DNA of 64,000 nt from Basidiobolus meristosporus CBS 931.73 (Eukaryota > Basidiobolomycota > Basidiobolomycetes > Basidiobolales > Basidiobolaceae): the NCBI GenBank assembly GCA_002104905.1, contig MCFE01000110.1:104043-168042 (forward strand), given 5' to 3'. The translations under genes were made by a program, and so were the position numbers. This document shows, in pieces, positions 2,962-64,000 of this stretch (positions within the stretch are counted from its first letter, which is position 1; each line of letters opens with the position of its first letter). The notes under the pieces are model-generated. The model saw nothing but the letters and a program-made list of their open reading frames with translations, was not told the origin of the DNA and made no database searches.

Positions 2962-4856
2962 CTGGGCGAGAGAACACAAGAAAGATAATAATCAATGGAT
3001 GACTAGCTCCATGAGCATGCATTTATATACAGGATCAGGATCTGCACTAGTATGATTTCCTGGAGATGCATACATACACCCTTGAGCATTCAATAACATG
3101 CACATACGTCGACTATTTTGCAAAATCTGTAGATAGGCCAAAGTGTTTAAGTTATTGATTTGTCCGAAATCATTATAACCTCGGGCGCTTCTATGAGGTA
3201 ATAACAAATGTACTTGGTCAGACATATATTCACAACATAGAGGTCAACTAACCAAGGCCTCAACCAGGGCACGGGATTTCACATTTGAGGAATATTCTAG
3301 CAAATAAAGTGGTTCGAGACAAACGAGTAACAAGATCCTGACTAGAGCTAAGATGTCCCAGCCACGTTCTGAAATCACAAGCACATAGCTACGAATACCC
3401 ACCCTTTATCATGTATACAAAGCTTAGGACTGGTTTGTTTCAGACCCAGCTGTCACATAATGTGTAGAAATGTCTACATACTACACCGGCAGCAACCTCA
3501 GTAGAGTTCTGGATTTAGGTGTTTGGTACCTAGAAAATTCCATAAACTATTAGTAATCGAATATACGGATGATAAGAATAGGTGAACTACAGTCTCATCA
3601 AGCTAGAACCATAAACCATTCAAAACAACATCGATATTACACGTGGGAAACTCCTCCCCCATCAAAATAGGAAGTGGCGTGATCAATACCTAGCAATCCC
3701 CTGAAGCCAATACACCTATGTGTGGGTATATCTGAACAGCAAGAAAAGGTGAATAGGTATGATTCAGATTATCGACACAGAAAACCAAATCAGGAAAGAA
3801 TAACCATTGGTAATTCATTCCTTAATATCGGATTTCGGAATAGACGTTGATATTGAAATCCAGGTTACAGCAGCCTATCTAATCAGATATTGTCAAATTT
3901 ATTCATTTGGTAACCTATCATGACCAATTATACTATAGGATTCTGTCGGCATATCGTAGCTCACCAATTCCAATTGTTGAACGAGGTTCTGGACTCGTAA
4001 AAGGCAGCTCAAAGATACCTATATACCCGATCATGGGCTATGTAATCATTCAATGCTTGGACAAATACGGGAATGTCTATGCTTGGTATCTTCTTTAATT
4101 GGAAGAGGCAGGCTGGCAGCATGAATGAAATTCGGTCGAGTCGGGTATATCCAAGGCCAAGTTTAATTCCTACACAAGTTGGATCAATCAACCATCGATG
4201 ATGCTGGATTGGCGTCAGGATGCTTTGACTCATTCACCTGTATTTAACCAATCGGCCAGCAACAACAGGGCCCTTGGGAGATGCAGGTCGGTATTTCTAG
4301 ACCTCTCTATATCCAAATGGGATTCGCAGCATATTGGTCAATTTCGTCACTTTGCCTCTATTTGACTTCAACGCTATTTTGATAGAGTCGATCTTTCTGA
4401 GCGATTCCCACTTCTTGTATTACAAAGGAGTGCGCTCCTGCACGTTAATAAAACTAGATCCAGCTTTGTTCCAATCAACCATGGGCAGCTGGGAATCACT
4501 CAACCCCATTCATTTGGTGGATTTTCGCCTATTTCCTCATAAACTTAGTTTATTTTTCGCCTATACAGCCCTTATCTATTGCTGGATCTCTATAGATAAG
4601 ATTGTCTTGTGACGAGGATATGTGGAAAATCCAACCCCAACAGAAAACAAATTTTTATAGTCTACTCGGACCTCATGTATATAGACATGCTGTCAACAAA
4701 GTATTCTTTTGCACCTTCTCCTCTTGGTGAATTCTTTTTGTTGAGACTCCTTGCGTTTATTAATTATATCATTTCTATTCTTATTTTTGCAATTTCTAAT
4801 TATTCTTGATTGATCTTCTTACTTTACCAACCTACTTCCTTACTTTTACTGTTAAC
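2962..4856. other. Intergenic; no recognisable gene
   Basis: About 1.9 kb between the divergently oriented ZIP4-like and bZIP genes. Open frames here (for example 4334-4612) are short and resemble nothing I know. A palindromic TGACTCA (4226-4232), the consensus site of GCN4/AP-1 bZIP factors, lies about 0.9 kb upstream of the bZIP start codon. Confidence 0.5.
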
Positions 4857-14490: not shown

Positions 14491-15255
14491 GGCAAGTATA
14501 TCTGCTCGGCTAAAGCACTAATACACCACAATGTAGTAAATCGAATATTATGAATTGAATGTTGCTTTTGACTTCCGCTTTTTTCATAGTGGGCGGTGCT
14601 GCATCTATATAACCTCTATCCATGTTGAACTCACTGAATATTTGCAATGTACAATACAAATGAATGACTTAAATTGGACAACAATCACCCAACATCCACA
14701 TCATGAGAAAAGTTCTTGGTGCTTAAAAATTAATGTACTGAAATTAAAAAACATGTCCCTGCAATTGATATGTCTGTCGCCTAGCAATTTATTAACTTTG
14801 GGAATCTATTCACAGCACAAGATACAAAGGCTAAGTTGCTTCCTTGCCAGTAGCAAGAGCTTTCGTCTCAACAAGTATAAATCTATATTACAGTATCAAA
14901 TATCAACCTACGGATCCTATTGTATAAAAGCACCATGTAGGCTAGTATTGTGGATCATTGGTTGTGTTGAAGGCGATGCAAGAGATTGCGGGTTTTACTT
15001 ACTCCTGACCAATACTGATAATCAAGTTAATGACCCATCTCGGTCAGCCCTACCAGGTTTGTACAAATTATGTGTTGAATCCTTTCATTTCCTGCCATTC
15101 CCTAACATTTCGGACAAACCGTAAACACCGTAAGGAACTGAGGAATACGAAATTGCTGGAATACCCAATCTCATTGTGACAACTTCGATTGAGTATATGG
15201 ATTTATTTTGAACGCTTTCAGAATTTACCATATACTAATATTGGTATTGGATTAA
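14491..15255. other. Intergenic, with a 189-codon unrecognised frame
   Basis: A plus-strand frame (14555-15124) is long for AT-rich sequence but has no domain, a low-complexity-free but unstructured composition rich in Cys, Leu and Ser, and no visible splice partners. It overlaps the 3' flanks of MGS1 and the GST gene. I treat it as probably non-coding. Confidence 0.35.
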
Positions 15256-16199
15256 TTAAGCATCGTTCTTATAAGCACTAATATGAGCGCCTTGCCAATA
15301 AATGTATTTGGGTCTTCTTTCACTCTCCAAGTAAGCAGCTATGCGTGGACGGCTCTTGAAGTCATGGTAGAACTTGTGTAGCTTAGGGTATTGCTCTTTG
15401 TCCAAAGCATTGGGATCCGCTTGTAGATTGTTGTCGATGTTGTCAAACACACAGACATCAGCATAGGTGAAGTCACTGCCAGCGAAGTAGCCAGTGTTGC
15501 CATTCTCCTCCAAGTAATACTCAAATGCCTTCAGGTAGAAGGGGATGGTCTCCTCGATGTATGCGGTCTTGAGGTTATCCTAAGGCATTTGGTTAGCGCA
15601 CCGCTCCAGAGAACAGTCTGGGCGCTCCAAGGCAAGACGAGTGTACTTACAAATTCGGGGTTGTAGCAAAGTACAGCATACTTGCGGCGCCAGTCATTCT
15701 AGTGATGTGGTTCGAGAATATTAGATCAGAACGCTGCCTAGCAATCAGCGAAACACCAAACACTCAGATATACTTACGGTGGCTTCGGCAACGATATCAG
15801 CCTGAAGAGCTTCTCTCGCATTCTTCCCATTGGCACCTATCACAGATCATGCTCAGCAAAGAGAGAAGGGCATACTTCACAGAGCACATCGACCACCTAC
15901 CATGCTTGTTGGCCATGTATCTCAAGATAGCCTTGCTCTGAGACATCTTGATATCCCCATGCCAAGCAATTGGGACTTGGTGGAGGGGCACCAGGGAAGG
16001 CTTCACAGCCATCCAATCGTCGAAAGTCTCATCAGTGTATGAGATGTTCTTTTCTTCAAGGAAAAGGCGGAGCTCTTCAGCAAAACCTCTACAAAACAGA
16101 GGATCTGGTCAGCATAAAGCACGACAACGCTGATCCGTGGCTAGTCGAGACGACTTCTTACCTGATGGGAAAGTACAGGATGCGGTATTCGGCGGGCAT
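15256..16199 (-). CDS. Glutathione S-transferase, copy A
   Basis: Five exons (16162-16199, 15901-16088, 15778-15836, 15651-15698, 15256-15579) give 218 residues. The N-terminal thioredoxin-like half begins MPAEYRILYFPIRGFAEELRL, the start typical of sigma/mu/alpha-like GSTs with a catalytic Tyr near residue 9. Then come a cis-Pro region (QVPIAW) and the glutathione-contacting MSQSKAILRYMA. The helical C-terminal half includes GSDFTYADVCVFDN, the conserved N-capping and hydrophobic-staple motif, and ends in YKNDA. Cytosolic conjugation of glutathione to electrophiles. It is one of two tandem copies exactly 1565 bp apart. Confidence 0.93.
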
Positions 16200-16820
16200 G
16201 GATGAAGATATTTCAGACTTGAGAATGTGCTGATGATACGATAATGTGCCTTGGTCGAGGTTTTATTCGTAATTGCGAAGCATTCATGATCAGAGCACAA
16301 CGTCGCACCAAGTGAATGATCAGCATACCACCTCATTCCGTAGTAGATATAGGAGCTATTAGTAGTACCACCATACGAAATATAATTCATTACGAAGGCT
16401 GTGCTCTCATCCGCAGCAAGGAATATAAGCATGGCATCACTTGACGTAACGCTTTAAGGTTTGTACTGATAGAACTGTGAAATTATATGGTAAACAAGGT
16501 ACCAAAACAATTCACCTTGAAAGACGTGGAGGTTCTCATTGTTATTGTGTATCAAGTATACAATAAAGGTTTGGTTAGTGCCCCATCTAATCACACAAGT
16601 GATGTTGCTTTTTTAGTTATACCCAAAAAACGGTACTTCCAATTTCAAGAGTTCGAAAACTTGCGAAAGCTCCATATAATCGAATACCAATGCCTCCGAC
16701 AGCTCCGAAAACTACATTTAGAGTTCAAGCAACCAATGGATCACCTACTAGTTGCCATTTGAATTTATCAAGCCGTTGTTTATTAGAACTTATATTCCGA
16801 AATCAGTATTACTACGATAA
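16200..16820. other. Spacer between tandem GST genes
   Basis: Upstream region of GST copy A and downstream region of copy B. An unrecognised 91-codon plus-strand frame lies at 16487-16762. Confidence 0.45.
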
Positions 16821-17764
16821 TTAGGCATCATTCTTATAGCCGCCAAGACGGGCAGTTTGTCCATTAATATATTTGGGTCTTCTTTCACTCTCCAAGTAAG
16901 CAGCTATGCGTGGACGGCTCTTGAAGTCATGGTAGAACTTGTGCAGTTTGGGGTATTGCTCCTTGGTCAAAGTACTAGCATTCACAAGTAGATTGTTGTC
17001 GATGTTGTCAAACACACAGACATCAGCATAGGTGAAGTCACTGCCAGCGAAGTAGCCAGTGTTGCCATTCTCCTCCAAGTAATACTCAAATGCCTTCAGG
17101 TAGAAGGGGATGGTCTCCTCGATGTATGCGGTCTTGAGGTTATCCTAAGGCATTTGGTTAGCGCACCGCTCCAGAGAACAGTCTGGGCGCTCCAAGGCAA
17201 GACGAGTGTACTTACAAATTCGGGGTTGTAGCAAAGTGCAGTATACTTGCGGCGCCAGTCATTCTAGTGATGTGGTTCGAGAATATTAGATCAGAACGCT
17301 GCCTAGCAATCAGCGAAACACCAAACACTCAGATATACTTACGGTGGCTTCGGCAACGATATCAGCCTGAAGAGCTTCTCTCGCATTCTTCCCATTGGCA
17401 CCTATCACAGATCATGCTCAGCAAAGAGAGAAGGGCATACTTCACAGAGCACATCGACCACCTACCATGCTTGTTGGCCATGTATCTCAAGATAGCCTTG
17501 CTCTGAGACATCTTGATATCCCCATTCCATACAATAGGTAACTGATGGAGGGGTGCCAAGGTAGGTTTGAGGGTGGCCCAGTCCTCGAAAGTCTCATCAG
17601 TGTATGAGATGTTCTTTTCTTCAAGGAAAAGGCGGAGCTCTTCAGCCAGACCTCTATCGAACAGAGGATCTGGTCAGCATAAAGCACGATAACAGTGAGT
17701 CTTGGCTAGTCGAGACGACTTCTTACCTGATGGGAAAGTACAGGATGCGGTATTCGGCGGGCAT
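16821..17764 (-). CDS. Glutathione S-transferase, copy B
   Basis: Exons 17727-17764, 17466-17653, 17343-17401, 17216-17263 and 16821-17144, identical in size to copy A, encode 218 residues. Start (PAEYRILYFPIR), glutathione-site helix (MSQSKAILRYMA) and GSDFTYADVCVFDN motif are shared. Differences cluster in exon 2 (ATLKPTLAPLHQLPIVWNGD against MAVKPSLVPLHQVPIAWHGD in A) and in the last 60 residues. The middle of the gene, introns included, is almost base-identical to A. Both copies presumably make cytosolic, active enzyme; the divergent exon-2 stretch lies near the glutathione site and could alter substrate choice. Confidence 0.93.
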
Positions 17765-18679
17765 GGATGAAGATATTTTAGACTTGAGAGTGTGCTGATG
17801 ATGCGATAATGCGCCTTGGTTAAGGTTATATACAAAATTGATAAGCATTTGTACTCGATTCCATGGTTGCACATACTCTATCTTCATACAGTACGAGTTG
17901 ATTGGACACTGGATTGCTTCTACACTATTCCTGCGCTTTGTAATTCAACAGCACTAGCCTAGCTGAATTATTAATACAACTTGTGATGGAGCTATTGGTA
18001 CGGCAATACGGTTGAAATGGTATACGCCTCCCCTCTAGTGCTTCTACCTAATTAGGGCATGCCATTGCGTGGCACCACCTTGCGTAACACCATGCAGGTC
18101 TATGTTAATAATCCAGAAAAAAGGAATCCGGTAGAATGTTTATTAAAGCAACTATCAATCATGATGGACCACGAGATGAACTCCAAGAACTCAACTAGAG
18201 AATTGTCTCAAGCATGAGGTATTGATCTCCTCATCTTTGGTCAGTAATCAATCATTAATTTCCTGATCAAATTAATGGAAGATGACTTTGAATAAACGTT
18301 GGGATTCTCCAGATGCCTGGTGATTTCCGTAACCTCTAGCCAGAGCTGGCGATGGTTTTCGGTAAGCTAAAGCCCCTTGACAGCTTCCATGAATACACAA
18401 ACTTTAAAGCTGTAAACTCTTGTGGTGGTACGCAAAACTGTCTGCCAGATGATTCATGGCGATATGGAGTGGCAACCGCTGGATATCTGCCAACGATTCA
18501 AACAATCCCCAGTAGAATGTGAAGCCAAACTTGTATCAGGTATTTATTAAACTGCAATACAAATTTATGAAATATACATTGACTTGTGCCAACTATGAAA
18601 CTAGGAAGGCTCTCAAGTTTTGATGATCAGTGAATGGGAATGTTGATTTAATGGGATGCGAGATGGGAGTTGTTGCCTG
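17765..18679. other. Intergenic; no recognisable gene
   Basis: Upstream region of GST copy B and 3' flank of IBA57. Nothing recognisable. Confidence 0.45.
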
Positions 18680-49667: not shown

Positions 49668-50000
49668 TGTTGTAAGAGTCTTGGAGATATTGGAAGTGAT
49701 TTGGAGAACAAGTAGATTATGTGTTTTTCACTTAATGATTTATTGAATGTAAAAGTAGTATTTATACTTTTACGTGGTCTTGGCATTGCAAACACGTAGA
49801 ATAGGTTAAGGAAGGTCCCAAGAACATGTGTGCAAAGTTTGGGGCTGTTTGGACAACTTTGAGAATTTTCATGTTCTGGGTAAATATTCTAAGTAAATCC
49901 CAACAAGGAATTTGGTCAGTATTCTCTAGGATTTGAAGGTGATGATCTAAGTGACTAAGTTAGGTGAATATTTAGGTGGAAAATACAAATTTTTACAACA
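49668..50000 (-). repeat. copia 3' LTR
   Basis: Begins TGTTGTAAGAG and ends TTTTACAACA on the + strand; nearly identical to the LTR at 55064-55396. It is the 3' LTR because the element reads leftward. Confidence 0.95.
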
Positions 50001-50011
50001 CTCCCACTCAG

Positions 50012-51320
50012 CTAAATGTTCATACTGACTAGTCCTAATTTTGACCTAAGATATTCAAACTTGTCTCTAGCTAATGGTTTGGTAAATATGTCTGCAATCA
50101 TTTCATCTGTAGGACAGTAAACTAAGCTAACTAAGTTATTCTCTATAGCTTCACATATGAAATGATGTCTAATATCTATGTGCTTGGTTCTAGCATGAAA
50201 AGTTGGATTTCTACCTAATTGTATACATCCTTGATTATCTTGAAATAAAGTAATAGGCGTTTTTTGACATAGGCCTAAATCTGTAAAGAGCTTTCTTAAC
50301 CACATTGCTTCTTTTGTAGCTTCACAGGCTGCCATATACTCTGCCTCTGTAGTAGAAAGTGCTACGGTTGGTTGCTTTCTTGAATTCCATGAAATGGCTC
50401 CTTTACAGTAAAGAAAGGTGTATCCTGTGGTGGATCTTCTGTCTTCTAAATTTCGTCCCCAATCAGCATCAGAGTATCCCACAAGATCCTGTTCTGAATC
50501 CTTATAAGTGTATCTTAAGCAGATATCAGCAGTTCCTTTTAGGTATCTAAAAATCCGCTTAACTGCTGCAATATGATCAGATCCATAATTCTGATTATGT
50601 TGGCTGACAACTCCCACTGAATATGAGATATCTGGACGTGTTCCAAGCATGATATACATCAGACTGCCGACCATAGATTGATAAGGAAAGTCAGGGCTTT
50701 CAGATGGCACCAAGCTCTCTTGATTTGGTTGAGTTTTGACCAAGTTAAGGTTTGTCTCCATTGGGGTAGCTGCCGGTTTACAGTCTTCCATTTTGTACTT
50801 CTTTAGTATATCTTGAATATACTTGGATTGGCTTAGGGTAATAGTCTGGGTACTTCTGTCTATGGAGAACTTAATCCCTAAGTAGTAACTAAGTTCTCCT
50901 AGATTGGACATCTTGAACTCCTTAGATAGGCTGGATTTAGTCTCTTCCAATGTTTCTAGGTTATTGGCGGCTATAATAAGATCATCCACATATAGAGCTA
51001 ATAGAACTGGATTTGCTCTATCTGGCTTATAGTATATACTATAGTCAGCATTACTCCTTTTGAAACTCAAAGATTCCAAATAAGAATCTATCTTGCAATT
51101 CCAGGCTCTTGGTGATTGTTTGAGACCATATAGTGACTTTTTAAGCTTGCAGACCAAATGGGGGTTATCTTGGTCAACAAACCCATCAGGCTGGTCCATA
51201 TACACGTCCTCATCAAGTTCTCCATTCAAAAAATGCAGTTTTTACATCCATTTGATGGATAAAAAACTTATATTTGGCTGCAATAGCCAATATTAATCTG
51301 ATGGAATTAAACTTGGCTAC
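50012..51320 (-). pseudogene. copia RT C-terminal part and RNase H
   Basis: Carries the RT catalytic block YVDDLIIAA, the SNLGELSYYLGIKF region, ALSTTEAEYMAACEATKEAMWL of RNase H, and the terminal YLRSKLGLVSMNI. The long intact frame is 50012-51229. Just upstream, near 51230, a run of T is one base longer than the frame needs (after MDVKTAF), shifting the frame. A solo LTR insertion separates it from the RT N-terminus. Confidence 0.9.
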
Positions 51321-51325
51321 CGGTG

Positions 51326-52394
51326 TGGTGGTGTATAGGTCCAAGGGAGAGATACATCCAACACTTCTCAAGTGTTTTGTGTGTGGGGTGTTCACTGGGT
51401 GCGATAACCTCTGGCAAAAGCTTGCTAGGAATACTTGGGTTCTGTCTCTAATCTAATGTGAAGGGGAATAAAGCCACAAGCTTGTCAAGGGAAAACTATT
51501 GAGCTACAATCCCCAACTTAGTTGGCGTCTTAACAAAAGTATGTGCTGGGTTCAGCGTCCTTTGAGATGACAATGTACTAAAGCTTCCAAAGTCAAAACA
51601 ACTGTAAACTCCACCAGCCGGGACTTGATAAGAATGCAGCTTTGGTCAATAGTTACAAAGACAGAAAAGTATCTTTGCCTGTACAAGAACAAACTTGGGA
51701 AAGAATCAAATATAATAAAAGATACCTACTCTGAGTATTCCTCACAAGTAGTGCCTCCAAGGTCAGTTGGCTGTCAGCGCGGTTTCCTGGGAGTGTCCTG
51801 TGGTCTAGGGTTGGAAGTTCAGGTAGCAGCAGGTAGCAGTGATCACACTAATCAACAAGTCGGTATATTGATAAAAGGGATGATGATTTATTGTTGAGGG
51901 ATAGCCTCCCTTATATACTTTTCTCACTGGCTAAGTGATTACTAATCAAGGTGTTCCAGAAGGTTCCGGAGATCAATAGAAATCTTAATGACATCAGAAT
52001 GACCTAAGAATGTTCTAAGTAGGTGCCGGAAGGTTCTAAGAGGCACAGCACATCCAACCAATCAGGAATCAGTATTCTGAAACCTGTGTAACATGGGGAT
52101 ACCATATATGGTATGGAAATGGTAGGGATGGTGACACGGGCTGATCATGTGTCACGGGTACTGGCGCGGGTACTTGCCTAATATAGAAGTACTTATAGCT
52201 AGTAATCTTACATAAAGTGAGGGGTAACTTATGCAATAAGGTAAGCAGGTGTGATAGTCAACCGGCTTATGGGATAGTACTGATTGGGTAAGACAAATGG
52301 GATAAAACTAAAATAAGTGTAGTAGAGATATAGGGAAGTAGAAAATAAGGGAATGAGCACATCTGTCAGTGGGTGTCACTGTCACCCCACTACA
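51326..52394 (-). mobile_element. Nested solo LTR of a different retrotransposon
   Basis: A 1069-bp insert in the copia RT, flanked by direct CCGGTG (51320-51325 and 52395-52400; ACCGGTG if one more base is counted). On the minus strand it starts TGTAGTGGGGTGACAG and ends CACCACCA, thus TG...CA. It contains a TATATAAG box near 51911-51917 followed by AATAAA near 51888-51893, the expected LTR promoter and polyadenylation layout. It has no coding capacity and is unrelated to the 333-bp copia LTR. Confidence 0.75.
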
Positions 52395-52400
52395 CCGGTG

Positions 52401-53889
52401 CAAAGGTCTCAGTATAGTCAAGTCCTTTTGTTTGAGAGTATCCTTTGGCTACAAGTCTTGCTTTGTATCTTTCAATTGTACCATCAGCCTTGTATTTTGT
52501 CTTGAAGACCCATCTGCATCCAATGATTTTCGGTTGATTGGTAATTTGACTAAGTCCCAAGTTTGATTTTCCATCAGGGCCTGATATTCCTCAGTCATTG
52601 CAGATCTCCAAAACTTTGTCTGAGGGCTATTTAGGGCCTCTTTTACAGTCTGGGGTTCATCAACATGGACTGAATAGGCATAGGCTAAGTTTGTACCCTC
52701 ATTGATATAGTAATTTGGGCTATTTCTTGTCCAATTGGATCTCCGGGCATTTGATACTGGAATGATCACTTCTGGGATATTCCTGGGCACTGATTCTGGC
52801 TGAACCACGGTTGTAGAGTCCTCTGGAGTGAAAAAATTTTCATTGTTTTGCTCTGATTCAATCCTGACAATTGGTGGACTTGAGATCAAATTTTCGTCAT
52901 CATCTGATGTCATTTTTTGTGAACATTTTGAATTTTCATCAAACAACTCATCCCTGGACTTGATCAGCTTCTTTGCTTTGGTATTGTAGAGTCTATATGC
53001 CTTACTCTCATTGCAGTAGCCCAAAAATATGCATTTTACACTTTTTGGCTCAAATTTTGACTGATTTCCGGCCAGTTTTTTGGCATATGCTGTACACCCA
53101 AATATTCTTAGATGTTCTGCACTTGGTCTGCATCCATACCATGCTTCAAATGGAGTAGAATCACAAAGTATTCTGTTATAACTCCTTATTTTTAAGATAT
53201 ACAGCAGTGGCAACAGATTCTGCCCAAAAATCATAGGATAATTTTTGATCATGGATCATAGATCTTGCCATATCAATTATTGATCTGTTAGCTTGTTCTG
53301 CTACTCCATTTTGCTGTGGGGAGTATGGTACAGTAGTCTCTTGCTTTATCCCATGAATTTTGCAGAAGTGGATGAAGAGTTTTGAGGTATATTCTCCACC
53401 ATTGTCAGAGCGTATTTTCTTGATTTTTTCACCAGTTTCTCTCTCCACCATGGCTTTAAACTCCCTGAGCTTAGACAGAGCTTCTTCCTTTCTCTCCATG
53501 AAGTAGACCCATGTGTATCTTGTATAATCATCAATAAAAGTGATTAAATACTTCATCCCGCCTAAGGATAAATTTTGCATAGGTCCACACAGATCTGAGT
53601 GAATTAGATCTAACTTTTTCTTAGTTTTGATTAACCCAGAGCTCTTGAACGGTTGTCTGGCTTGTTTCCCATATATGCAGGCTTCACAGTGCTCCAAAAT
53701 AGCTGGGGGATCAATTTTCACTCCAGAAATTAGCTGATCTTTGATCATTTTACGCAAATAATCAAAATTGATGTGTCCAAATCTCCTGTGCCAAAGCATT
53801 GGTGTTTCTTCATTTAAGTTACTTATATTGGCTTCCAGATATGATGGAATATAAGTCAACTTGTATAGGTTCTGATCTCTGATGCCCAA
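52401..53889 (-). pseudogene. copia integrase and RT N-terminal part
   Basis: Frame 53176-53889 carries the integrase HHCC zinc region (LWHRRFGHINFDYLRK...CEACIYGK) and DDE core (LIHSDLCGPM, NGGEYTSK). Frame 52449-53252 continues with the integrase C-terminus, a linker and the start of RT. The frames are displaced by one base in an A-rich run near 53200, and a second one-base loss lies in an A run near 52540. [11 protein letters not shown] just precedes the nested LTR. Confidence 0.88.
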
Positions 53890-54042
53890 AGCAATATGAG
53901 CACCAGTTTGATCAGTGATCCTGCATCCAGAATTGTCAAAACTGAAACTGAGTCCTTCTGCTGTGGCCTTGCTTACAGAGAGTAGGTTCTTGGCTATTTC
54001 TGGTACATAGAGTACTTCTTTAAAGGTCAGTGTATGGCTTCC

Positions 54043-55059
54043 TTAACTGCTTCTAAGGATTACTTGGATAGTTCCTTCTCCCACTGCATCAAGTGTTCTA
54101 TCGTCACCCATGAAAACCTTCTTAATTGGAATTTCTTGATATTGGGTAAAAAGTTCTTTTTGGTGTGTAAAGTGTTGAGAAGCTCCAGAGTCAATATACC
54201 ACGTCTGAGAATCCTTGTTTGTGGTCATATTTAGTGCAGATATGAATAGTCTATCTTCAGTTGTTGCAGCATTTCCATATTCAGGCTTCTTTTGCTGATA
54301 ATCTTTCTGTTTGAAACACCGGTCTGATGTGTGTCCTTTCCTTTTGCAGTAGTTACAAAACAGGTTGCTGTTGCCTTTGTAGGGTCTTGGGTACCTCCTT
54401 TGTTGGTTATCATTGCTTATTAAAGCATTTTCTTCTTCCTTCTTATTGGCGCTTGATTTTCTTAATTCTTCATCCAGGAGCCTTCCATATACGTAATTTA
54501 AGGTCAAATCTTCAGTTCTGGACTCTAGGGCTGATACAAGGCCCTGAAACTCGTCTGTCAGGCTATTCAGGATGGTAACTATCACATCCTCATCAGTAGT
54601 TGGTACGCCCACAGATTCCATCTCATCTACCAGCAGGGTAATTCTGTTAATTAGATTTTTCAGTTCTTCTCCTGGCAGCATCTTTGTAGTAAAGAATTTT
54701 TGTCTCAGATACATTTTCTTGGCAGCTGAACATGACTGGTAGGTGTCTTCTAATGCCTTCCAGGCATTCTTTGCCGTTTTTGCTCTTGAGCATTGAATTA
54801 GCAATTTGTCCTTGACATTAAGGCAAATGCAGTTAAAGGCACTTTGTTCTTTCTTCTGGTACTTTAAAGCTTCCTCTCCCACGTTTTTAGGAGGGCATTC
54901 TTCTCCCATGACAATATCCCAAAGGCCTCTTTCTTGCAGCAGCATCTTCATCTTCACCTTCCACACTTGGTAGTTAGATCCATCCAACTTTTCAGCAGAG
55001 GGAAAAATTCCAGTAATAGCAGTAGTAGACATTGCAGAGAGTGACAGCTTGGGGCTCAT
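54043..55059 (-). CDS. copia Gag and protease N-terminal part
   Basis: From an ATG at 55059, four bases inside the 5' LTR boundary, the frame encodes the UBN2/copia Gag (DGSNYQVWKVKMKMLL, TAKNAWKALEDTYQS), a CCHC zinc knuckle CNYCKRKGHTSDRCF, and the protease motif WYIDSGASQHFTH. It ends at an in-frame TAA after VILRSS, beyond which homologous coding resumes (GSHTLTFKEVLYVP). The stop therefore lies inside the protease region and is probably a mutation. Confidence 0.88.
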   Translation of the reverse strand: MSPKLSLSAMSTTAITGIFPSAEKLDGSNYQVWKVKMKMLLQERGLWDIVMGEECPPKNVGEEALKYQKKEQSAFNCICLNVKDKLLIQCSRAKTAKNAWKALEDTYQSCSAAKKMYLRQKFFTTKMLPGEELKNLINRITLLVDEMESVGVPTTDEDVIVTILNSLTDEFQGLVSALESRTEDLTLNYVYGRLLDEELRKSSANKKEEENALISNDNQQRRYPRPYKGNSNLFCNYCKRKGHTSDRCFKQKDYQQKKPEYGNAATTEDRLFISALNMTTNKDSQTWYIDSGASQHFTHQKELFTQYQEIPIKKVFMGDDRTLDAVGEGTIQVILRSS

Positions 55060-55063
55060 AACC
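55045..55063 (-). promoter_or_regulatory. copia primer-binding site (half initiator tRNA-Met type)
   Basis: Directly downstream of the 5' LTR the minus strand reads GGTTATGAGCCCC. Its complement, GGGGCTCATAACC, matches the anticodon stem-loop (loop CTCATAA, anticodon CAT) of initiator tRNA-Met rather than a tRNA 3' end. Drosophila copia and relatives prime from such a cleaved half tRNA. Confidence 0.7.
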
Positions 55064-55396
55064 TGTTGTAAGAGTCTTGGAGATATTGGAAGTGATTTGG
55101 AGAACAAGTAGATTATGTGTTTTTCACTTAATGATTTATTGAATGTAAAAGTAGTATTTATACTTTTACGTGGTCTTGGCATTACAAACACGTAGAATAG
55201 GTTAAGGAAGGTCCCAAGAACATGTGTGCAAAGTTTGGGGCTGTTTGGACAACTTTGAGAATTTTCATGTTCTGGGTAAATATTCTAAGTAAATCCCAAC
55301 AAGGAATTTGGTCAGTATTCTCTAGGATTTTAAGGTGATGATCTAAGTGACTAATTTAGGTGAATATTTAGGTGGAAAATACAAATTTTTACAACA
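55064..55396 (-). repeat. copia 5' LTR
   Basis: 333 bp, TGTTG...CAACA. Differs from the 3' LTR by a few substitutions (for example CATTACAAAC against CATTGCAAAC), indicating a recent insertion. Confidence 0.95.
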
Positions 55397-55552: not shown

Positions 55553-55986
55553 TGTTGCAATATTCTGAGGAGTATTGGAAGTGATGTGGAGAACTAGAGG
55601 ATTCACATGTGATTCACATGTAGATTGATTGATCAAAAGTATGGCATTTGTACTCTTGCTAAAGTAGGGCAAGCAAGTGCACAAAGTTTGCTGAGGATGG
55701 GCCCAAGAATATGTGTACAAAGTCTGGGGTCTTTTGGGCAACTTTGAGAACTGTCATAATCTCAGTACTAGAAAAATTTGGTAAGAATATTCTGAGTAAA
55801 TCTCAACAAGGAATTTGGTCAGTATTCCCCAGGATTTGAATGTGATGATCTAAGTGACCAAGCTAGGTGAATATGTACCTGGAATTCCAAATTTTTACAA
55901 CACACCCACTCAACTAAATGTTCATACTGACTAGTCCTAATTTTGACCTAAGATATTCAAGCTTGTCTTTAGCTAGTGGTTTGGGT
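55553..55986 (-). mobile_element. Diverged copia remnant: LTR plus 3' coding end
   Basis: An approximately 350-bp LTR (55553-55902, TGTTGCAA...TTACAACA) clearly related to, but divergent from, the young LTRs is followed by about 80 bp matching the C-terminal RNase H coding end of copia (KLGLVSMNI on the minus strand). Homology stops at GGTTTGG near 55985, where telomere-like GGGTTAGGGGG originally began, before a younger LTR inserted at that junction. Confidence 0.8.
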
Positions 55987-56318
55987 TGTTGTAGGAGTCT
56001 TGGAGATATTGGAAGTGATTGGGAGGACAAGTAGATTATGTGGTTTTCACTTAATGATTTATTGAATTTAAAAGTAGTATTTATACTTTTACATGGTCTT
56101 AGCATACCTAACATGTAAAATAGATTCAGGAAGGTCCCAAGAGCATGTGTGCAAAGTTTGGGGCTGTTTGGACAACTTTGAGAATTTTCATGTTCTGGGT
56201 AAATATTCTAAGTAAATCCCAACAAGGAATTTGGTCAGTATTCTCTAGGATTTGAAGGTAATGATCTAAGTGACTAAGTTAGGTGAATATTTAGGTGGAA
56301 TTACAAATTTTTACAACA
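55987..56318 (-). mobile_element. Solo copia LTR with TSD TGGGT
   Basis: 332 bp, TGTTGTAGGAG...TTTTACAACA, close to the intact element's LTRs. Flanked by TGGGT at 55982-55986 and 56319-56323, a perfect 5-bp duplication, so it is a solo LTR from recombination after insertion. The target was a telomere-like TGGGTTAGGGGG junction. Confidence 0.9.
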
Positions 56319-56337
56319 TGGGTTAGGGGGTAGACAG

Positions 56338-56351
56338 TCACCAACAGGTGA
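56338..56351 (-). other. LINE 3'-terminal hairpin (copy 1)
   Basis: Minus strand TCACC-TGTT-GGTGA, followed by a short spacer and the CCCCCTAA tail. Equivalent hairpins lie at 57510-57523 (copy 2, same loop) and 57669-57682 (copy 3, loop ACTT). Stem kept, loop changed: a likely RT recognition element. Confidence 0.6.
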
Positions 56352-56911
56352 AATCTTTGTTTTGGTTGAAACAATGAAGCCAGTGTTACTGTTGTAGCTT
56401 TGATACAAGATTGTGTAGGTGAGGGGAATTTGTAGGTAAGCTAATAAGAAGTGATGATAGTTCTTCAGTGCTCAAGACACTGTTCAGTGGGAAGGGGGGT
56501 AGCAAGAGGGGTAAGAATGAATTGTGAACAACATTAATGCAGGGAATATGATAGGGATTGATATTCATCATAAAGGGAGTGTGCTTCTTCAGATACTGCT
56601 GCCATAGATGTGTCAAGTACTTCAGGTAGGCCAGCTTGGGTATTTCTGACTGCAGACTAATGTGCAAACTTCTTGACTTCAGGATCTTTAAGTATAGTTC
56701 TCCAGCAGGAGCTAGCTGTAGTGTGGTGTGCTCTCTTTCAGGCCTTGATCAGTGGGTTGTTGCAGTATTGAAGTCTGAGATATAATCTGGTCCTAAGATA
56801 GAGAAGTCTGATCATATATGGCATAAACACAAAAGCACCAAGAATTGCATGTCTGTAGAGGTATTCAGGCAGATGAGGCACCAAGAAGGTAGTACACCAG
56901 ACTGCAAACTT

Positions 56912-57243
56912 TGTTATAAAAACTTGTATTTCCACCTAAATACTCACATAACTTAGTCACTTAGATCATTACCTTCATATCCTAGAGAATACTGACCAAA
57001 TTCCTTGTTGGGATTTACTTAGAATATTTACCCAGAACATGAAAATTCTCAAAGTTGTCCAAACAGTCCCAAACTTTGCACACATGCTCTTGGGACCTTC
57101 CTGAGTCTATTCTACATGTTTGTTATGCCAAGACCATGTAAAAGTATAAATACTACTTTTACATTCAATAAATCATTAAGTGAAAACCACATAATCTACT
57201 TGTTCTCCCAATCACTTCCAATATCTCCAAGACTCTTACAACA
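56912..57243 (+). mobile_element. Solo copia LTR in opposite orientation, TSD AACTT
   Basis: 332 bp, TGTTATAAAAAC...CTTACAACA, the reverse complement of the other copia LTRs. Perfect 5-bp duplication AACTT at 56907-56911 and 57244-57248. It is inserted in the RT coding part of LINE copy 1, so it is younger than that copy. Confidence 0.92.
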
Positions 57244-57490
57244 AACTTGTCAAGCTTAGTGCAGTCTCTAGAAGTAAGAGAGTGAAGTGGTAAGCCAAAT
57301 TCCAGTGTAGGGAAGACAAACTGCTTGAGTAGAAGGAGGCAGCTGGGAGCTGAAGTTGTAGGAGGAGTAACAGCCAGTAGCTTGTGGAGTGCCTGTCTTG
57401 CCAGGATAATTCTCTTCTTCAGGTGTGATCCAGAGTTAGGGTGTAGGTGTTATAGTAAGGGCTAGGAAAAGGTTAGAAGAGCAGGGGGTC

Positions 57491-57652
57491 AGGGTTAGGG
57501 GGGAGACAGTCACCAACAGGTGAAATCTTTATTTCAGTTGAAACAAAGAAGCCAGCGCTACTGTTGTAGCTTTGATACAAGAGTGTGTAGCTGAGGGGAA
57601 TTTGTAGGTAAGTTAATAAGAAGTGATGATAGTTCTTCAGTGCTCAAGACAC
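57491..57652 (-). mobile_element. Severely truncated LINE 3' end, copy 2
   Basis: Begins AGGGTTAGGGGGG (57491-57503), then a hairpin (57510-57523) and about 130 bp aligning closely with the 3' end of copy 1 up to GCTCAAGACAC. It then stops abruptly at the next TTAGGGGGG. Confidence 0.85.
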
Positions 57653-57811
57653 TTAGGGGGGAGGAAAGTCACCAAGTGGTGAAATCTTTATTTACTTATG
57701 ACAAGTATCTAAAGAAGCCAAGTTAATCTGAAGTTATTCCTAGAAAGCTAGGTCTGAGAGTTGAGAAGCTGAGTGGTACTATAATTCCTAGTTAGCTAGG
57801 TCTGAGAGAGG
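57653..57811 (-). mobile_element. Severely truncated LINE 3' end, copy 3 (second subfamily)
   Basis: TTAGGGGGG (57653-57661) followed by GAGGAAAGTCACCAAGTGGTGAAATC: the same terminal hairpin design with a different loop and different upstream sequence, including an internal direct repeat (CTAGGTCTGAGAG twice). Ends at the next TTAGGGGGG. Confidence 0.75.
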
Positions 57812-57838
57812 TTAGGGGGGAAGGGGAGGAAAGTCACC
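57812..57838 (-). mobile_element. Minimal LINE 3' end, copy 4
   Basis: TTAGGGGGG (57812-57820) plus AAGGGGAGGAAAGTCACC, the first bases of a subfamily-2 3' end (half the hairpin), cut off after 18 bp by the next TTAGGGGG tract. Confidence 0.55.
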
Positions 57839-57881
57839 TTAGGGGGGGGGGAAACCACCGGTTGATGTTATTTATTGTCAA

Positions 57882-58229
57882 TCATTGTGAAAATAAAGAA
57901 GTCAGGGATTGATTCTGGAGTCTTGTAACATATTTGTACAGACACTTTGGGTTAATATGTAGATAGGTTGCTATTTCTTGTAGTTCCTCTGCATTGAATA
58001 GAGTGTTGAGAGGGAGTGGTGGTAGCACTAGCAATAATAACTTATGATCTATGTATTGTGATGTGCTTTTGCCAATTGGTGATATAAAGCAAAGAAATGG
58101 GGTTTGCTGAGTTACATACTCTTGCCATAGTTGATTAAGATACTTGCTATATGCTTCTTTGGGGTTTTTACTCCCCTCTATTGCTTTGACAAATTGCTGG
58201 ACTTTGGGGACCTGATGATAGTTGCCCAA
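57882..58229 (-). pseudogene. LINE C-terminal domain, shifted frame
   Basis: 115 codons whose sequence (AYSKYLNQLWQEYVTQQTPFL, LVLPPLPLNTLFNAEELQ) matches the C-terminal part of LINE copy 1 at 56386-56667 (AYLKYLTHLWQQYLKKHTPF, LLPPFPLNSVLSTEEL). The conserved protein sequence between the two copies shows it is real coding material, displaced from the RT frame by a frameshift. Confidence 0.75.
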
Positions 58230-61200
58230 CAGGAGTTATTTTGAAGCATCTTGCGTGAAATCCATGCTTGTATCAACTCATTTGTTGATTTTTGGAGTTT
58301 AATACATAGTCTTGTACGGAGGTACAAAATTCTAATTGAATACGGGAGTAGTCCAAAAGTTGCCAGGACTGCGTGGTGATACTGTGTTGGTGGGAGCCAT
58401 GGTAATAAAGTATAAATGCTGTGAGAAAAAAACTTGTCCAGTTTTGTCAGGTATCTTGTTGGAATAGGCATTATTGCCAATCCAAACTCCAGTACTGGGA
58501 GCACAAACTGCTTGAGTAACAAGTGACATCGGCTCAAAGGTATATCTGGTGGTGTAACAGAGACTAACTTGTGTAAAGCATGCCGTGCAAGTGCTATTTG
58601 CCTCCACACATGTGCTTTTACATCCAGACCAGATGCAGTAAATGGAAGCCCTAGATAGCTGACAGTTTCTGCTGGGTGTAGAGTTTGAGAGTTCAGCATG
58701 ATACTGCATCCAACTGGCTTGGTTTTTGCCATTGAGACACTAAGATTATTTTGTGTAAGGTAGCTGACAATCAGGTTAGAGTCTTTTTCCAAATTACTGG
58801 AAGAGATACGAATATCATCTGCGTATAAAGTTGTAAGTGCAGAGGCTTCCAAGGCAGGAAAGTCATTCATAAAGATGGCAAATAGTAGAGGGCCTAGTAC
58901 GGTTCCCTGCACTACCCCATTTGGAACATCATAAGTGGTAGATTGCATATTTGGATGCAAAATGTAGGCCTTTGAGTCCTGATATAAAGCCATGATAAGA
59001 GCTGTAATTGAAGGTCCAGCAAAAGCTTCAAGTTTTCTCCAAAGTAGGTTATGGTCAACTGCATCAAATGCATGGGTAATATCCAAGAGTACTGCTGGAA
59101 ATTTGTTACAGAGTGTGTGGTCATGGCTTAGCATGACAGCCATTTATAGCAAGACTTTAGGTATAAAACCAAATTGATTTGCTACAAACAAGCCACTAGA
59201 TGAGAGTTGCAAAGCAATTAACAGTTCCAATACCTTTCTGCAAGCTGGTAAGAGGGAAACAGGGTGATAGGATTCTGCCAGTTTGGCTAAGCCTCTACCT
59301 TTGTATAGAGGAATCACCTTTGCAACCAGTCATTCCAACAGCATTTGCACATGTGAAATACACTGCAAATAGAATGGGAGCAATATATGTGCCATGGCAG
59401 CAGGTGCCAGCTTCAAGATTTCATATGTTATGTTGTCATGACCTGGTTTGGTATTGTTGGGTAGCTTACAAAGAGTTGCCTCTAAAGTAGCTGCATCCAG
59501 GTTAATTGTGTGAGAGCAATCTCTTGAAGTAGCTGTATAGGGCTTGGAGCTGTATATGTCTTGCACAAAGAAAGCAGCAGCTAAAAGATTGGGACTTGGT
59601 AGATCTTTTGAAGCTGGCTGTAGAGCTTGATATATTCTTGATATGCTTCTAGTAGTGTCTGCAGCAGTCTTCAGTGGTAGAGAGTGCATTATATGATTCT
59701 GGTAGGATGCGTGTTTTTGAAGATTTTGAAGTTTCACATATTCGACTGCATCATCCAATAGCTGCTTCTGTGAGGGGTTAGGGAATTGGCAATAGCTCTG
59801 GGACAGTGCATATACTATGTTATGCCACTGGCACATCTGGGATGTTGGGCATTTGGTTGGTAGTGACAAAGCAGCAGCAATCAATATCACAAGCTTGATA
59901 AAAAGCCATGCAGTATCAACACAGCTGGGTAGATTGGTGTGATAGCTGATAATCATCAAGTAGTTAGCAAAATCTTTAAGTTGCAATGGCATTGCTTGAC
60001 ATGTCTTGAATTGTAGAGGTTTTGCCGGCAGGACAGTGGGGAATTGCAATATCACTGACCATGCATCATGATCTGATGAGTTAAGCATTCCAAGCTGCAA
60101 CTTCTTGACAATGGCAACCTCTTGTAGTAATTGTAAACCAGCTGGTGTTGTGCATATCCAGTCTACACATCATTTTTCTGACTGGGGATTAACAGCAATA
60201 AAATGACATTGACGCAGCATACGGTGAATAACAGTTGCCTTCAGCTTAGCACTCTTTGATACAGAGATGCAATTTGTGTCATGAGGAATATTTAGGTCAC
60301 CAACTAGGATGCTTGCGGATTTCAAATGACAATGGAGCTGGACTATGGCATTAGCAATGTTGCTGACCTGCTCAAGTGCCAGCTTAGGTGGAAGATAGAT
60401 GAGTAAAATACTGAGCATATTACATTTGAGTGAAGCGGCATATGGCAAAACTAATGGCGTCACCAGAGTTGTACTATGCTTTGTGCGTAAAATAAAGCAG
60501 ATGGAGTGGCAAGTATTGTGTGGGCTACTAAAATAGTATGGCTCAAAAGTGTTCAGAACCAAATCAGTCATCTTAACATTGGCAAAGCAGAGAATATCAT
60601 ACAACTGGAGTAGTGCCTGAATTGATTCCACTATTGGGCAGAGACTGCGGCAATTGAGATACAATATCTGTGGGAGTCAAATCCCAGCTTCCAGGGGTGC
60701 TCTGGCTGCTGATGTTGGATAATTGTTGAGGGAACCAGCAGCATTCCATAGCTTATCAAAGGGAGCATCACTGAATTCCAAGAGCAGGGAGATTGCATGT
60801 TGCTTCAAGAAATATGCTACTTCCTGAGAAGGTGCTTGACGCTTGATAGCAGCAAAAAATGACATAATTGCAAGATGTGCTGGTGGCTTGTTGAACAAGA
60901 GCAAGCTGGACTTGGCAATCTCATCCAAAACAATTGTGAAGTGAGTGATAGTCCAATCTAATTGGATTCCTACAAACTCAATAAAGGCAGCTGATATATT
61001 CTGGTCAAGAATTATTTCAAGAACCTTTCCCTTCCGCCAAGCCAGGTTTATGATACATGAGGTATCAAAGTTAAGTGATCAAAAGGTACGGCGTATTGCA
61101 GTTAAAGTTGTCCACGGAACATTCTTGAAGTAGAGCACTGTCCATGTACTAACTGGCGGAAGATTTTTGGGTGGCTTATATGCTGGCTTTTTGATGTTAT

Positions 61201-62029
61201 TTTCTGCTGAGTTTAGTTGAGAACTTGGCTGTATTTGTGTACTTGATAGAATCTCTTTTCTCAGTGTGCAGCCAGCAAATGTATCTGGAATTTTGGTGCA
61301 AGCAACCTAGGCATATGTTTGCTGAGACTCATCCCGGCTGGAACTCTGTACTTTATGTTTGTGCAAAGTTGCTGACAGTTCCACCACTTTTGGTGAGCAT
61401 GACTCCTCCTCCACATGTGAAGCTACTGCCAAGTATGGATTAAAGTTAGCAGCTAATGATTTGTTAAACAATTTCATTGTGGTGTCAAGCTTCTCTTGTA
61501 GTAGATTATGTTGTTCCAGCATTATGCTGTACTTGTCCAATAAGAGACTGTTTCCATTCTCCAGTACAGCTACCTTAGTCTCCAATGCCTGTATTTGTTT
61601 TAATAGCAGGTACATTGAAGGCACTGGAGTTTGACTTACTACCCAAGGAGATGGATGTTTGAGTATATCTATACTTTCCATTTCAGCATGTTTAGTAACA
61701 GGCGTCTCTACACTAGGTAAAGCCAGGCTTATAACTGGGCTAGAACGTGTCTCAGAGTGCACTCTGGGTGAGACGGTTGGAGAATTGCAACTCTTCAGTG
61801 ATGGCAATGTCTTAAACTGCCTCAAGATGTTGCTCATCACTCAAAATCCAATATTCTGAAGGCATTGGCAGCAAAAGGTAAGCTTGTTTTTAGCACCTGA
61901 TCTTCCATTTTTCTTTATGGTGCCTTGTTGTCCGCATTTTGGACAGGTAACATTCTAGGCATAATGAGCAAATTTGCTTAGCACTTGCCTCTCCGGACTG
62001 GTGGTGATAAACTTTGAATGACTTGGCAT
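58178..62029 (-). pseudogene. LINE polyprotein: zinc ribbon, coiled coil, APE endonuclease, reverse transcriptase
   Basis: One reading frame can be followed from ATG 62029 to 58178. In order: a CPKCG...CCQC zinc ribbon near 61880-61950; a coiled-coil/Gag-like part (61307-61840); an ORF1-like tail; an APE-type endonuclease (LNCRSL near 60650, GDLNIPHD near 60290, SSDHDAW near 60060); and RT (LLDITHAFDAVDHNLLW, GVVQGTVLGPLLF, TLYADDIRISSS). In-frame stops interrupt it at 61955-61957, 61841-61843, 61307-61309, 61079-61081, 60677-60679, 60170-60172, 59330-59332 and 59144-59146. A C-terminal domain continues in another frame at 57882-58229, so one frameshift lies near 58200. Non-functional unless stops are read through. 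Confidence 0.85.
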
Positions 62030-62655
62030 ATCTTTAGAGTAGAGATGAGAGTATATTTACCTGATGCATGACCCTTTTATTTACAGTTAAAACAATGATA
62101 GCGTACAAGAAACAATAGATCCACGCATTAGGAAATAGATGTTGTGATTCAATGTGGTTAGGAATGCTGATGGCAAGAAAAAACAAGAAAGTGAGATGGT
62201 ATGCGAGATATTATTCACATCAAAGCCACACAACATGTGTGCAACAATCTGGTGGTGTGAATGCTATGATGATGAATTATTTATAGGGATTGATTCCGCG
62301 CGGTAAGAAGGTATGGCAAAAGTTCATGATACTTCAATGTTGTATGATAGTAGTGAGTAGCACTCAAGTCATGAATAATTATATTTCTAGCTACACCCCG
62401 GAATTGAAGTGCCACAATAAACACCCTTAACAATGATTTTGATTTGTTCTTTCACAGAATGCTTGGACACCTTTTATCCAGAATCAGCTTGAAGCATTGC
62501 ACCAACATATGTGTAATCAAATATTCCCAAGGGCGATAATCAAGACAACAATCAAGATGCAGAGCTGTATTCTATGTGTTAACCCAGATTTGGCATTCAT
62601 AATAATTGTGTGATTGCTATTTCTGCCAACTAACATCAGGAAATACTACTTAAAT

Positions 62656-62712
62656 ATTACTACGCATTGATACCCTCAGCAATTACTACGCATTGATACC
62701 CTCAGCAATTAC
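62656..62712. repeat. 26-bp tandem repeat
   Basis: Two perfect copies of a 26-bp unit beginning ATTACTACGCATTG (62656-62681, 62682-62707), followed by the start of a third. Confidence 0.9.
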
Positions 62713-63469
62713 TATTCCCATGAATCTAGTAGATCAAACATTGTACCAACCATCTGCGCCAACATATGTATAATCAATTACACCCAACAAGGATGACAAT
62801 CAAGACTCAAGTGACGACGACAATCAACCATTGTGTAAACATAGACGTAGATACAGAGGCCGCTTTTGACTTTATGGCTGTGGATTGTTTTTATTGATGA
62901 TTGGCCAGATAGAATAGCTATCAGCTGAGCTTCGGTTGCTGATGATTGTAGATAAACACAAAAGCAACTAAGGGCCAATATGCGCTTAATTTGTTAATGT
63001 ATCTTACAATTGATATTACTCCAGTGTCCCTGTTCATCAAGTATACCCAATTATTCTGTAAACAAGCTTTCAAATATGATACACAAGAGATATGCCCACA
63101 GGGATGCAAGTATCAACAAGAGCCGATCAAGCATTATTTTCTCAATTATAATAGGAATCACTTGTCTGTGATGCATGTTATATGCGCGCTCATGGTAGTG
63201 AGTAATAGTTAGAATTCATGGGATGGCAATACACTCTAGGATGCCCAATCTCCATATTGACTAGGCCACAGGACTTACAGCCAAGTGTTACCAGTTTCTT
63301 ACCCTTCCCCAGAATTGGTGGCTCATCAGAGGGGAGAATGGAAATTTACATGGTGTTGAGTTTGTCAAACGCTCTTGTTCCCGTGCTTGTAATGACTGTA
63401 TTTCTGCTATCACATATGAGGCAAAAAATAATGAAACTTTGTTGGATTTGGTCTCAAGCGCAGTTGTTG

Positions 63470-63804
63470 GTACATTGGGTGTCTTCCATGGGCTCAGTAT
63501 ACTGTGAGTCCTGATTAGCACAGTCGTCGCCACATTGAACATCTTCCATAGGCTCAGTGTACTGTGTATCTTAGTCAGAGCATCCTTCAACGCATTGGGT
63601 GTCCACTACTGGTGTGGAGTATGTCTCATCTTGTGCAGGCTGAATAATAACAGTGGGGTAATTAGTGCCATCTTCTGAGTGTTCAGCACCCTTCTGTTTG
63701 GCTGAACCTTCTACTTTGAGGCTAGGGCCTGCTTGAAACTGAACATTGAGACTCTTGTCACTGTTGGCGTTGGCAGTGTTCAGATTGTCATGCTTTCTGG
63801 TCAC
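63470..63804 (-). pseudogene. Degenerate gene fragment with DTQYTEPMED repeats
   Basis: Minus-strand reading from 63804 gives a 77-codon hydrophilic stretch ending VVDTQCVEGCSD, then an in-frame stop, then DTQYTEPMEDVQC and DSQYTEPMEDTQC about 60 bases apart. The repeats are imperfect and interrupted by stops, suggesting a decayed repetitive protein (or ORF1-type retroelement protein) cut off by the telomere. No family recognised. Confidence 0.4.
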
Positions 63805-63814
63805 GGTGGTGAAC

Positions 63815-64000
63815 TTAGGGTTAGGGTTAGGGTTAGGGTTAGGGTTAGGGTTAGGGCTAGGGTTAGGGTTAGGGTTAGGGTTAGGGTTAGGGTTAGGGTT
63901 AGGGTTAGGGTTAGGGTTAGGGTTAGGGTTAGGGTTAGGGTTAGGGTTAGGGTTAGGTTAGGGTTAGGGTTAGGGTTAGGGTTAGGGTTAGGGTTAGGGT
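63815..64000 (+). repeat. Telomere, (TTAGGG)n
   Basis: About 31 tandem TTAGGG units to the end of the window, G-rich strand running 5' to 3' outward, so this is a right chromosome end (or the sequence stops within the telomere). Two variants: CTAGGG at about 63857 and a shortened TTAGG near 63953. Confidence 0.98.

Follow-up and report, generated by a model that had tools for sequence, protein, structure and literature searches.

Head-to-tail stacks of LINE and SINE-like elements joined at telomere-like tracts at chromosome ends of Basidiobolus meristosporus

To our knowledge, telomere-targeted LINEs have been described from few hosts, and those of fungi are members of the REL/CRE clade. SART and TRAS carry poly(A) 3' ends and occupy a fixed insertion place within telomere arrays, nicking inside such arrays is the route proposed for them as well as for MoTeR and FoTeR, and the junctions of the Drosophila HeT-A element consist of oligo(A/T). 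According to the accessible parts of their descriptions, MoTeR1 and MoTeR2 of Magnaporthe oryzae and FoTeR of Fusarium oxysporum are, like the elements considered below, fungal non-LTR retroelements arranged in head-to-tail arrays at chromosome ends; Cnl1 belongs to the same CRE-type clade, and the 3' tracts of FoTeR comprise 3-7 units (PMC12857005). The accessible part of PMC10088271 lists GilM and GilT (Giardia), Zepp (Chlorella) and Tx1-1_ACar (Anolis) as further telomere-associated LINE-type elements, which resemble the present ones by this description; MoTeR1 is the sole fungal telomeric retroelement named there, and no SINE is named.

The window analyzed here is a stretch of 64,000 nt (GC content 42.4%) that corresponds to bases 104043-168042 of contig C114 in the genome of B. 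meristosporus CBS 931.73 (89.0 Mb, 1,311 contigs). The stack found near its right end is fairly likely to consist of telomere-specific non-LTR retroelements, including at least two LINE families (A and D), a SINE-like element B and further families.

Anatomy of the stack in the window

The placement of the stack at a chromosome end, proposed in the initial annotation, agrees with the last 186 bp of the window, in which (TTAGGG)31 closes contig C114. The tract TTAGGGGG was found on the plus strand at 56323, 57495, 57653, 57812 and 57839, exactly the five positions annotated before, and these five of the seven occurrences in the whole window lie inside 1.53 kb. Dinucleotide shuffles of the window contained 1.4 such tracts on average and 5 at most; chance clustering was ruled out by these shuffles together with the genome-wide recurrence of the tract. 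The following features were delimited:

49668..55396, minus strand: Copia-type LTR retrotransposon, the large element nearest to the stack on its inner side
55987..56318, minus strand: solo Copia-type LTR at the stack base, with the duplication TGGGT (55982-55986 and 56319-56323)
56323..56330, plus strand: junction tract TTAGGGGG of LINE A copy 1
56331..57435, minus strand: LINE A copy 1, 5'-truncated and split by a solo LTR, matched to contig C29
56912..57244, plus strand: solo Copia-type LTR, inverted, within LINE A copy 1, with the 5-bp duplication AACTT
57436..57494, minus strand: element G fragment of 59 nt with TTAGGG at its inner border, a sixth segment that is new relative to the initial annotation
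57495..57652, minus strand: LINE A copy 2, the last 158 bp including the TTAGGGGGG tract, 98-100% match to the C29 copies
57653..57811, minus strand: SINE-like element B, 5'-truncated copy of 159 bp
57812..57838, minus strand: 27-nt fragment made of the tract and the last ~18 nt of a B-type 3' end
57839..62100, minus strand: LINE D, decayed, with tract TTAGGGGGGGGGG and a 5' border that is not sharp
58178-59143, 59330-60676 and 60677-~62030, minus strand: reverse transcriptase (RT), the rest of the RT/endonuclease part and ORF1 of LINE D, respectively
63815..64000, plus strand: terminal telomere array (TTAGGG)31, which ends contig C114

Read from the inside outward, the order is Copia-type element, LTR debris, solo LTR, LINE A copy 1 and element G fragment, followed by the 158-bp LINE A piece, the 159-bp element B piece, the 27-nt B-type fragment and LINE D. 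The head-to-tail arrangement described earlier is thus confirmed, the 3' side of the window segments facing inward, and several details had to be revised. All five annotated segments had been taken as LINE-derived; this holds for the first two (LINE A) and the fifth (LINE D), and the third and fourth belong to element B. Truncation of the segments exactly at the next TTAGGG tract was likewise seen, except for LINE D, and segment 1 is cut earlier (at 57435) by the overlooked element G; nor is segment 1 an uninterrupted LINE piece, being split by the solo LTR at 56912-57244.

Segments 1 and 2 have 162 bp in common at 94% identity (self-BLAST); over its first ~40 nt, segment 3 is a 90% match to segment 2. 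On the two sides of its LTR, LINE A copy 1 is ~91% and 97% identical to the LINE A of contig C29. The element G segment recurs with the same truncation at L065:2497 and L065:6997 (contig C32), both times behind TTAGGG. The element B copy gave a 99% match over 108 bp followed by one with gaps at 83%, and carries an internal deletion between short repeats.

In contrast to these segments, the LTR elements of the same window are flanked by 5-bp target duplications. The LTRs of the Copia-type element (49668-50000 and 55064-55396) are 99% identical (self-BLAST), and RT, integrase and gag-like ORFs lie in the element as judged by eye. The TGGGT on both sides of the LTR at 55987-56318 shows that the LINE was already in place when this LTR entered the telomere-like junction; before this insertion, the junction at 56323 read TTTGGGTTAGGGGG.

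Between LINE D and the telomere, ~1.7 kb (62150-63814) belong to a different repeat family, with no TTAGGG at the LINE D border, whose relatives (74-90% identity) form clusters on other contigs, among them C136, C772 and C1026; the outermost part of the stack is therefore not explained by LINE addition. Elsewhere in the window, a direct 1-kb duplication (15253-16284 and 16818-17849, 92.5% identical) and a manganese superoxide dismutase gene were observed, the latter with B. ranarum (88% identity) and B. meristosporus (84%) as its best named matches.

The element families

LINE A is ~4.6 kb long and consists of a 5' region with one to three copies of ~103-bp monomers, an ORF1 with a coiled-coil-like stretch and an ORF2 with an APE-like domain followed by RT. 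An RT of the RVT_1 type was recognized in both LINEs (PF00078, E=9.1e-24 for LINE A and 1.6e-19 for LINE D), and in several copies of LINE A, ORF2 is open across the entire ~1.5 kb read. Compared with solved structures, the RT of P0134, a close relative of LINE A, matched human L1 ORF2p with an E value of 9e-16 versus 2.5e-4 for R2. Protein searches with ORF2 of LINE A returned close relatives, and those with the RT piece of LINE D from the window returned distant matches alone.

The putative endonuclease of LINE A is APE-like and N-terminal, and apparently not of the kind found in the CRE clade; a Pfam search revealed no REL domain (PD-(D/E)XK, CCHC) C-terminal to the RT in ORF2 of LINE A or its relatives. 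The PF14529 score was 27.5 bits in relative P0138, against a cut-off of 27.4, and 21.7 bits, below the cut-off, in LINE A itself. In a 52-row alignment, the Asn, Tyr, Asp-x-Asn, Asp and Ser-Asp-His positions of the domain are retained. The metal-binding Glu is replaced by Asp in three rows (LINE A, P0134 and P0136), is Glu in 47 and falls in a gap in two; the site in LINE A is residue 33 of P0253 (L112:1-1500, minus strand). This exchange is mild, and endonuclease activity may be kept.

ORF1 and ORF2 of LINE A share a reading frame, and in each of the 12 copies read, a UGA with CUA directly after it lies between them (e.g. L064:5862-5864, minus strand); the corresponding site of LINE D in the window (60677-60679, minus strand) reads UGA CUC. 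UGA-CUA is a known leaky stop context, so that readthrough of this stop codon in LINE A is likely. No matching case of such readthrough was found in the literature listings searched. Upstream of ORF1, the LINE A RNA contains CCCTAACCCTAA (L064, near 7440), which resembles a telomerase RNA template, and at the capped ends L123 and L124, the truncation lies within ~30 nt of this template-like motif.

LINE D is ~4.2 kb long. An exact pattern of its 3' end matched the window copy only, and the idea that it is single-copy was discarded when a DNA search revealed a family with 93-97% identity for the longer matches. Thirteen further 3' ends of LINE D were read, each with TTAGG or TTAGGG at the junction; ten are in forward orientation, up to 11.4 kb from the right contig end, and three are reversed, up to 2.4 kb from the left end.

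Element B, ~527 nt in length, is non-autonomous. At its 5' end, it carries internal Pol III A and B boxes like those of tRNA-derived SINEs (positions 18 and 61, score of 20 out of 22, equaled in 0/1000 shuffles); no tRNA or recognizable tRNA fold was found in element B (L131) by ARAGORN or Rfam. As is expected of a SINE and its partner LINE, elements B and A have a 3' tail in common, AATAAAGATTTCACC-loop-GGTGA, and differ in the last ~8 nt before the C-run. In the 5' part of element B, at position 33, CCCTAACCC also resembles a telomerase RNA template. Further families, C, E, F and G, were seen at other chromosome ends. Compared with shuffled sequences, the 3' hairpin gave a z of -3.0 for A (0/200), -1.3 for B and +0.99 for D; support for this stem-loop is strongest in A, moderate in C, E and F, weak in B and lacking in D.

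Location, orientation and junctions across the genome

In the genome, the 20-nt 3'-end motif that A and B share has exactly 1,172 occurrences (1,087 forward and 85 reverse), and the location counts that follow are based on the first 100 of these places. They include 35 3' ends on 13 contigs longer than 30 kb (the window's own included) and 64 on 20 contigs shorter than 30 kb. All 35 ends on the longer contigs lie at most 18,339 bp from the contig end with the 5' side facing that end, in agreement with the initial prediction of a single orientation and a distance of at most 20 kb to the chromosome end. The prediction that they adjoin TTAGGG was also largely borne out: of 95 listed ends, 84 have the repeat 2-16 nt upstream, and TAGGGGGG and TCAGGGGGG variants are among the other 11. 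Similarly, the best 40 of 188 candidates for the ORF1/5' part of LINE A are all forward and at most 7,890 bp (median 1,122 bp) from the right contig end, 33 of them on contigs longer than 30 kb. For element B, the 77 matches listed (from the best 40 of 419 candidates) are forward except for two at the left end of C424. This contig (312,558 bp) starts with AACCCTAACCC and has element B in mirror-image arrangement at its two ends, in reverse orientation at 137-1191 and in forward orientation at 311080-312355.

Ordinary LINE insertion at random sites is ruled out by this location and orientation. The pattern that would have spoken against the initial annotation, namely, LINE copies at random internal sites with target duplications and no TTAGGG, was not observed; the sole internal copy seen is a LINE D fragment that lacks its 3' end, 102.5 kb into the 267-kb contig C979, and this fragment counts against an end-only pattern. 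Telomere arrays were present at 14 of 20 sampled right contig ends. Genome-wide, (TTAGGG)5 was matched 6978 times forward and 73 times reverse, telomeres being found almost solely at right contig ends, a bias that probably reflects an assembly convention.

The junctions themselves were compared for 88 separate 3' ends from 45 contigs, a non-random set composed of the first-listed contigs, the loci L001 and L002 (picked by the TTAGGGGG pattern) and loci around the 5' ends of LINE A. One telomere unit was counted at 56 junctions, two at 18, three at three, nine at one and none at ten under a strict rule; most of these ten contain a degenerate motif, and at C36:168719 and C77:14721 the junction is a G-run alone with no TTA motif. 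Terminal arrays, measured at 23 of 30 loci, contain a mean of 31.6 units. The mean G-run is 6.8 in A (43 contexts), 5.6 in B (26), 4.3 in C (9), 4.25 in E (4) and 9.5 in D (13), lengths that may include homopolymer assembly error. Since the surplus of G varies by family, the extra G is attributed to the element itself, that is, to a C-run at the 3' end of its RNA.

Among the 73 junctions with enough upstream sequence, all 45 recognized proximal neighbors have the orientation of the element they adjoin; the remaining 28 junctions are preceded by other sequence or by pieces outside the reference set. The 3' end of LINE A is constant, and the 5' endpoints of its pieces are scattered between 18 and 4,567 nt, as is typical of LINEs. 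On the 5' side, 24 of 36 LINE A copies adjoin the next element and ten adjoin a telomere array at or near the contig end; in the remaining two, the contig stops inside the LINE or other sequence follows. These ten direct transitions into an array, together with the TERT-type gene considered below, bear out the alternation of elements with telomere repeats suggested at the outset. The clearest single insertion seen is a full-length element B (L131, C110:16400-17266) between nine proximal and ~35 terminal telomere units. On contig C2 (259995-260251; L063:5815-6090), three LINE A 3' pieces follow one another, the first two with the same cut point at ~118 nt. These twin truncations (C2:260115 and C2:260235) are likely the result of duplication rather than of independent additions, and such identical neighbors show that recombination or slippage contributes to the number of copies as well.

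Formation of the stacks and comparison with known systems

The constant 3' and variable 5' ends, the single orientation and the telomere caps show that reverse transcription began on the chromosome-end side of TTAGGG. On balance, we favor as the probable mechanism the priming of reverse transcription by the chromosome end from the 3' C-run of the element, followed by re-capping by telomerase. The RNAs would terminate in a short stem-loop (in A, B, C, E and F) plus the C-run, with which a G-strand 3' end carrying little repeat, often one or two TTAGGG, would pair. The LINE RT would then copy the RNA outward from the chromosomal 3' OH and mostly halt early; such copying accounts for 3' ends that are constant and 5' ends that vary, and for the surplus G in TTAGGGGGG. 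Finally, telomerase would re-cap the new end or the next element would join it, and the SINE-like elements would borrow the LINE enzyme. We infer the annealing, the priming by the end, the prior erosion, the mobilization of element B in trans and any benefit to the host.

Priming by the chromosome end is favored because tracts are of one or two units at 74 of 88 junctions, because some junctions are free of repeats and because the C-run is family-specific. The same short tracts, set against a terminal mean of 31.6 units, and the repeat-free junctions make it rather unlikely that the elements entered by target-primed insertion, in which the endonuclease nicks within double-stranded telomere arrays and the tracts are later lost by breakage and healing; the Asp in place of Glu in all three clade members that cover the site also argues against it, although this mild exchange may leave the enzyme active. 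What probability nicking has comes from the retained APE-type endonuclease, most catalytic positions of which are intact, from the element B copy of C110, located between nine and ~35 units as insertion into an array predicts, and from the instability of interstitial tracts of at least three repeats in MoTeR arrays of Magnaporthe, described in the accessible part of PMC7367193. Still less probable is copying of the junction TTAGGG from the element RNA (3' end CCCCCUAA), by which any broken end would be healed and a telomere target would be unneeded. It would fit the 56 of 88 junctions with exactly one unit and the stacks that lie directly on Copia-type or other non-telomeric sequence (the base of the window stack; C1224:170277), but a template predicts uniformity, and 22 of the 88 junctions have two, three or nine units and some have the G-run alone.

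The spread of most copies by recombination or break-induced replication between ends, with retrotransposition being old, appears very improbable. Copies are 98-100% identical and some adjacent ones share a truncation point, as this explanation would have it, but it is opposed by the many 5' endpoints (18 to 4,567 in LINE A) that go with a single constant 3' end, by the alternation of families in many orders and by ORF2 being open over the ~1.5 kb read in several LINE A copies. Coincidence or an assembly artefact, to which the ratio of 6978 forward to 73 reverse array matches might point, deserves practically no credence, given that the same junction grammar recurs on 45 contigs in six families and that C424 has mirror-image ends.

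Two pieces on C880 exceed the cut-off for the RNA-binding domain of TERT (PF12009); one of them contains an in-frame stop, located between exons or in an intron. Judging from these sequences, telomerase is probably present, and the elements would therefore add to chromosome ends and not replace telomerase. Beyond the end-primed mechanism itself, we tentatively consider a mixed system of end maintenance possible, in which telomerase is accompanied by a community of specialized LINEs and telomere-specific tRNA-like SINEs that extends short ends; end addition of the HeT-A kind would then have arisen independently in fungi with APE-type LINEs. In such a system, the elements would add kilobases to ends that have run short via the chromosome's own 3' end, with the C-run of the RNA pairing with the telomere G-strand, and this route may have made the conserved Glu-to-Asp exchange in the endonuclease tolerable.

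No description of telomere elements of Basidiobolus or of telomere-targeted SINEs was found in the open-access literature searched; the one paper on this fungus that came up concerns adenine methylation. New in relation to the fungal MoTeR and FoTeR elements are LINEs with a probable APE-type endonuclease and their SINE-like partners. They would represent a second origin of such elements, this time of APE type, in a fungus of an early-diverging lineage. With several families and well over a thousand 3' ends, they offer a natural comparison of how a retroelement becomes bound to chromosome ends while telomerase persists. The rise of HeT-A-like systems thereby becomes testable in a fungus, in particular, whether the chromosomal 3' end serves as primer and whether short telomeres attract the elements.

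According to the accessible parts of their descriptions, MoTeR and FoTeR resemble the present elements in the telomere repeat at the 3' border, in the tandem repeats near the 5' end and in solo truncated copies with a telomere-repeat cap. The location at chromosome ends with a telomere repeat at the 3' border is thus a trait of the CRE clade found here as well; at the same time, MoTeR and FoTeR carry a C-terminal REL endonuclease in contrast to the N-terminal APE-type domain of LINE A, and the tracts of 3-7 units in FoTeR compare with mostly 1-2 in Basidiobolus. With HeT-A, TART and TAHRE of Drosophila, the stacks have in common the inward 3' ends, the terminal head-to-tail arrangement of 5'-truncated copies and the proposed terminal addition; unlike HeT-A, which replaces telomerase, they occur together with telomere repeats (the arrays at 14 of 20 sampled ends) and a TERT-type gene (the RNA-binding domain on C880), and their junctions are TTAGGG plus a G-run. 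The SART and TRAS elements of Bombyx and Tribolium are likewise APE-type LINEs of hosts with telomere repeats and reach high copy numbers, as given in the accessible part of PMC10088271, and the present elements differ from them by the C-run end and the very short tracts. The system therefore resembles HeT-A and SART/TRAS in different respects and, on the features tested, is a member of neither.
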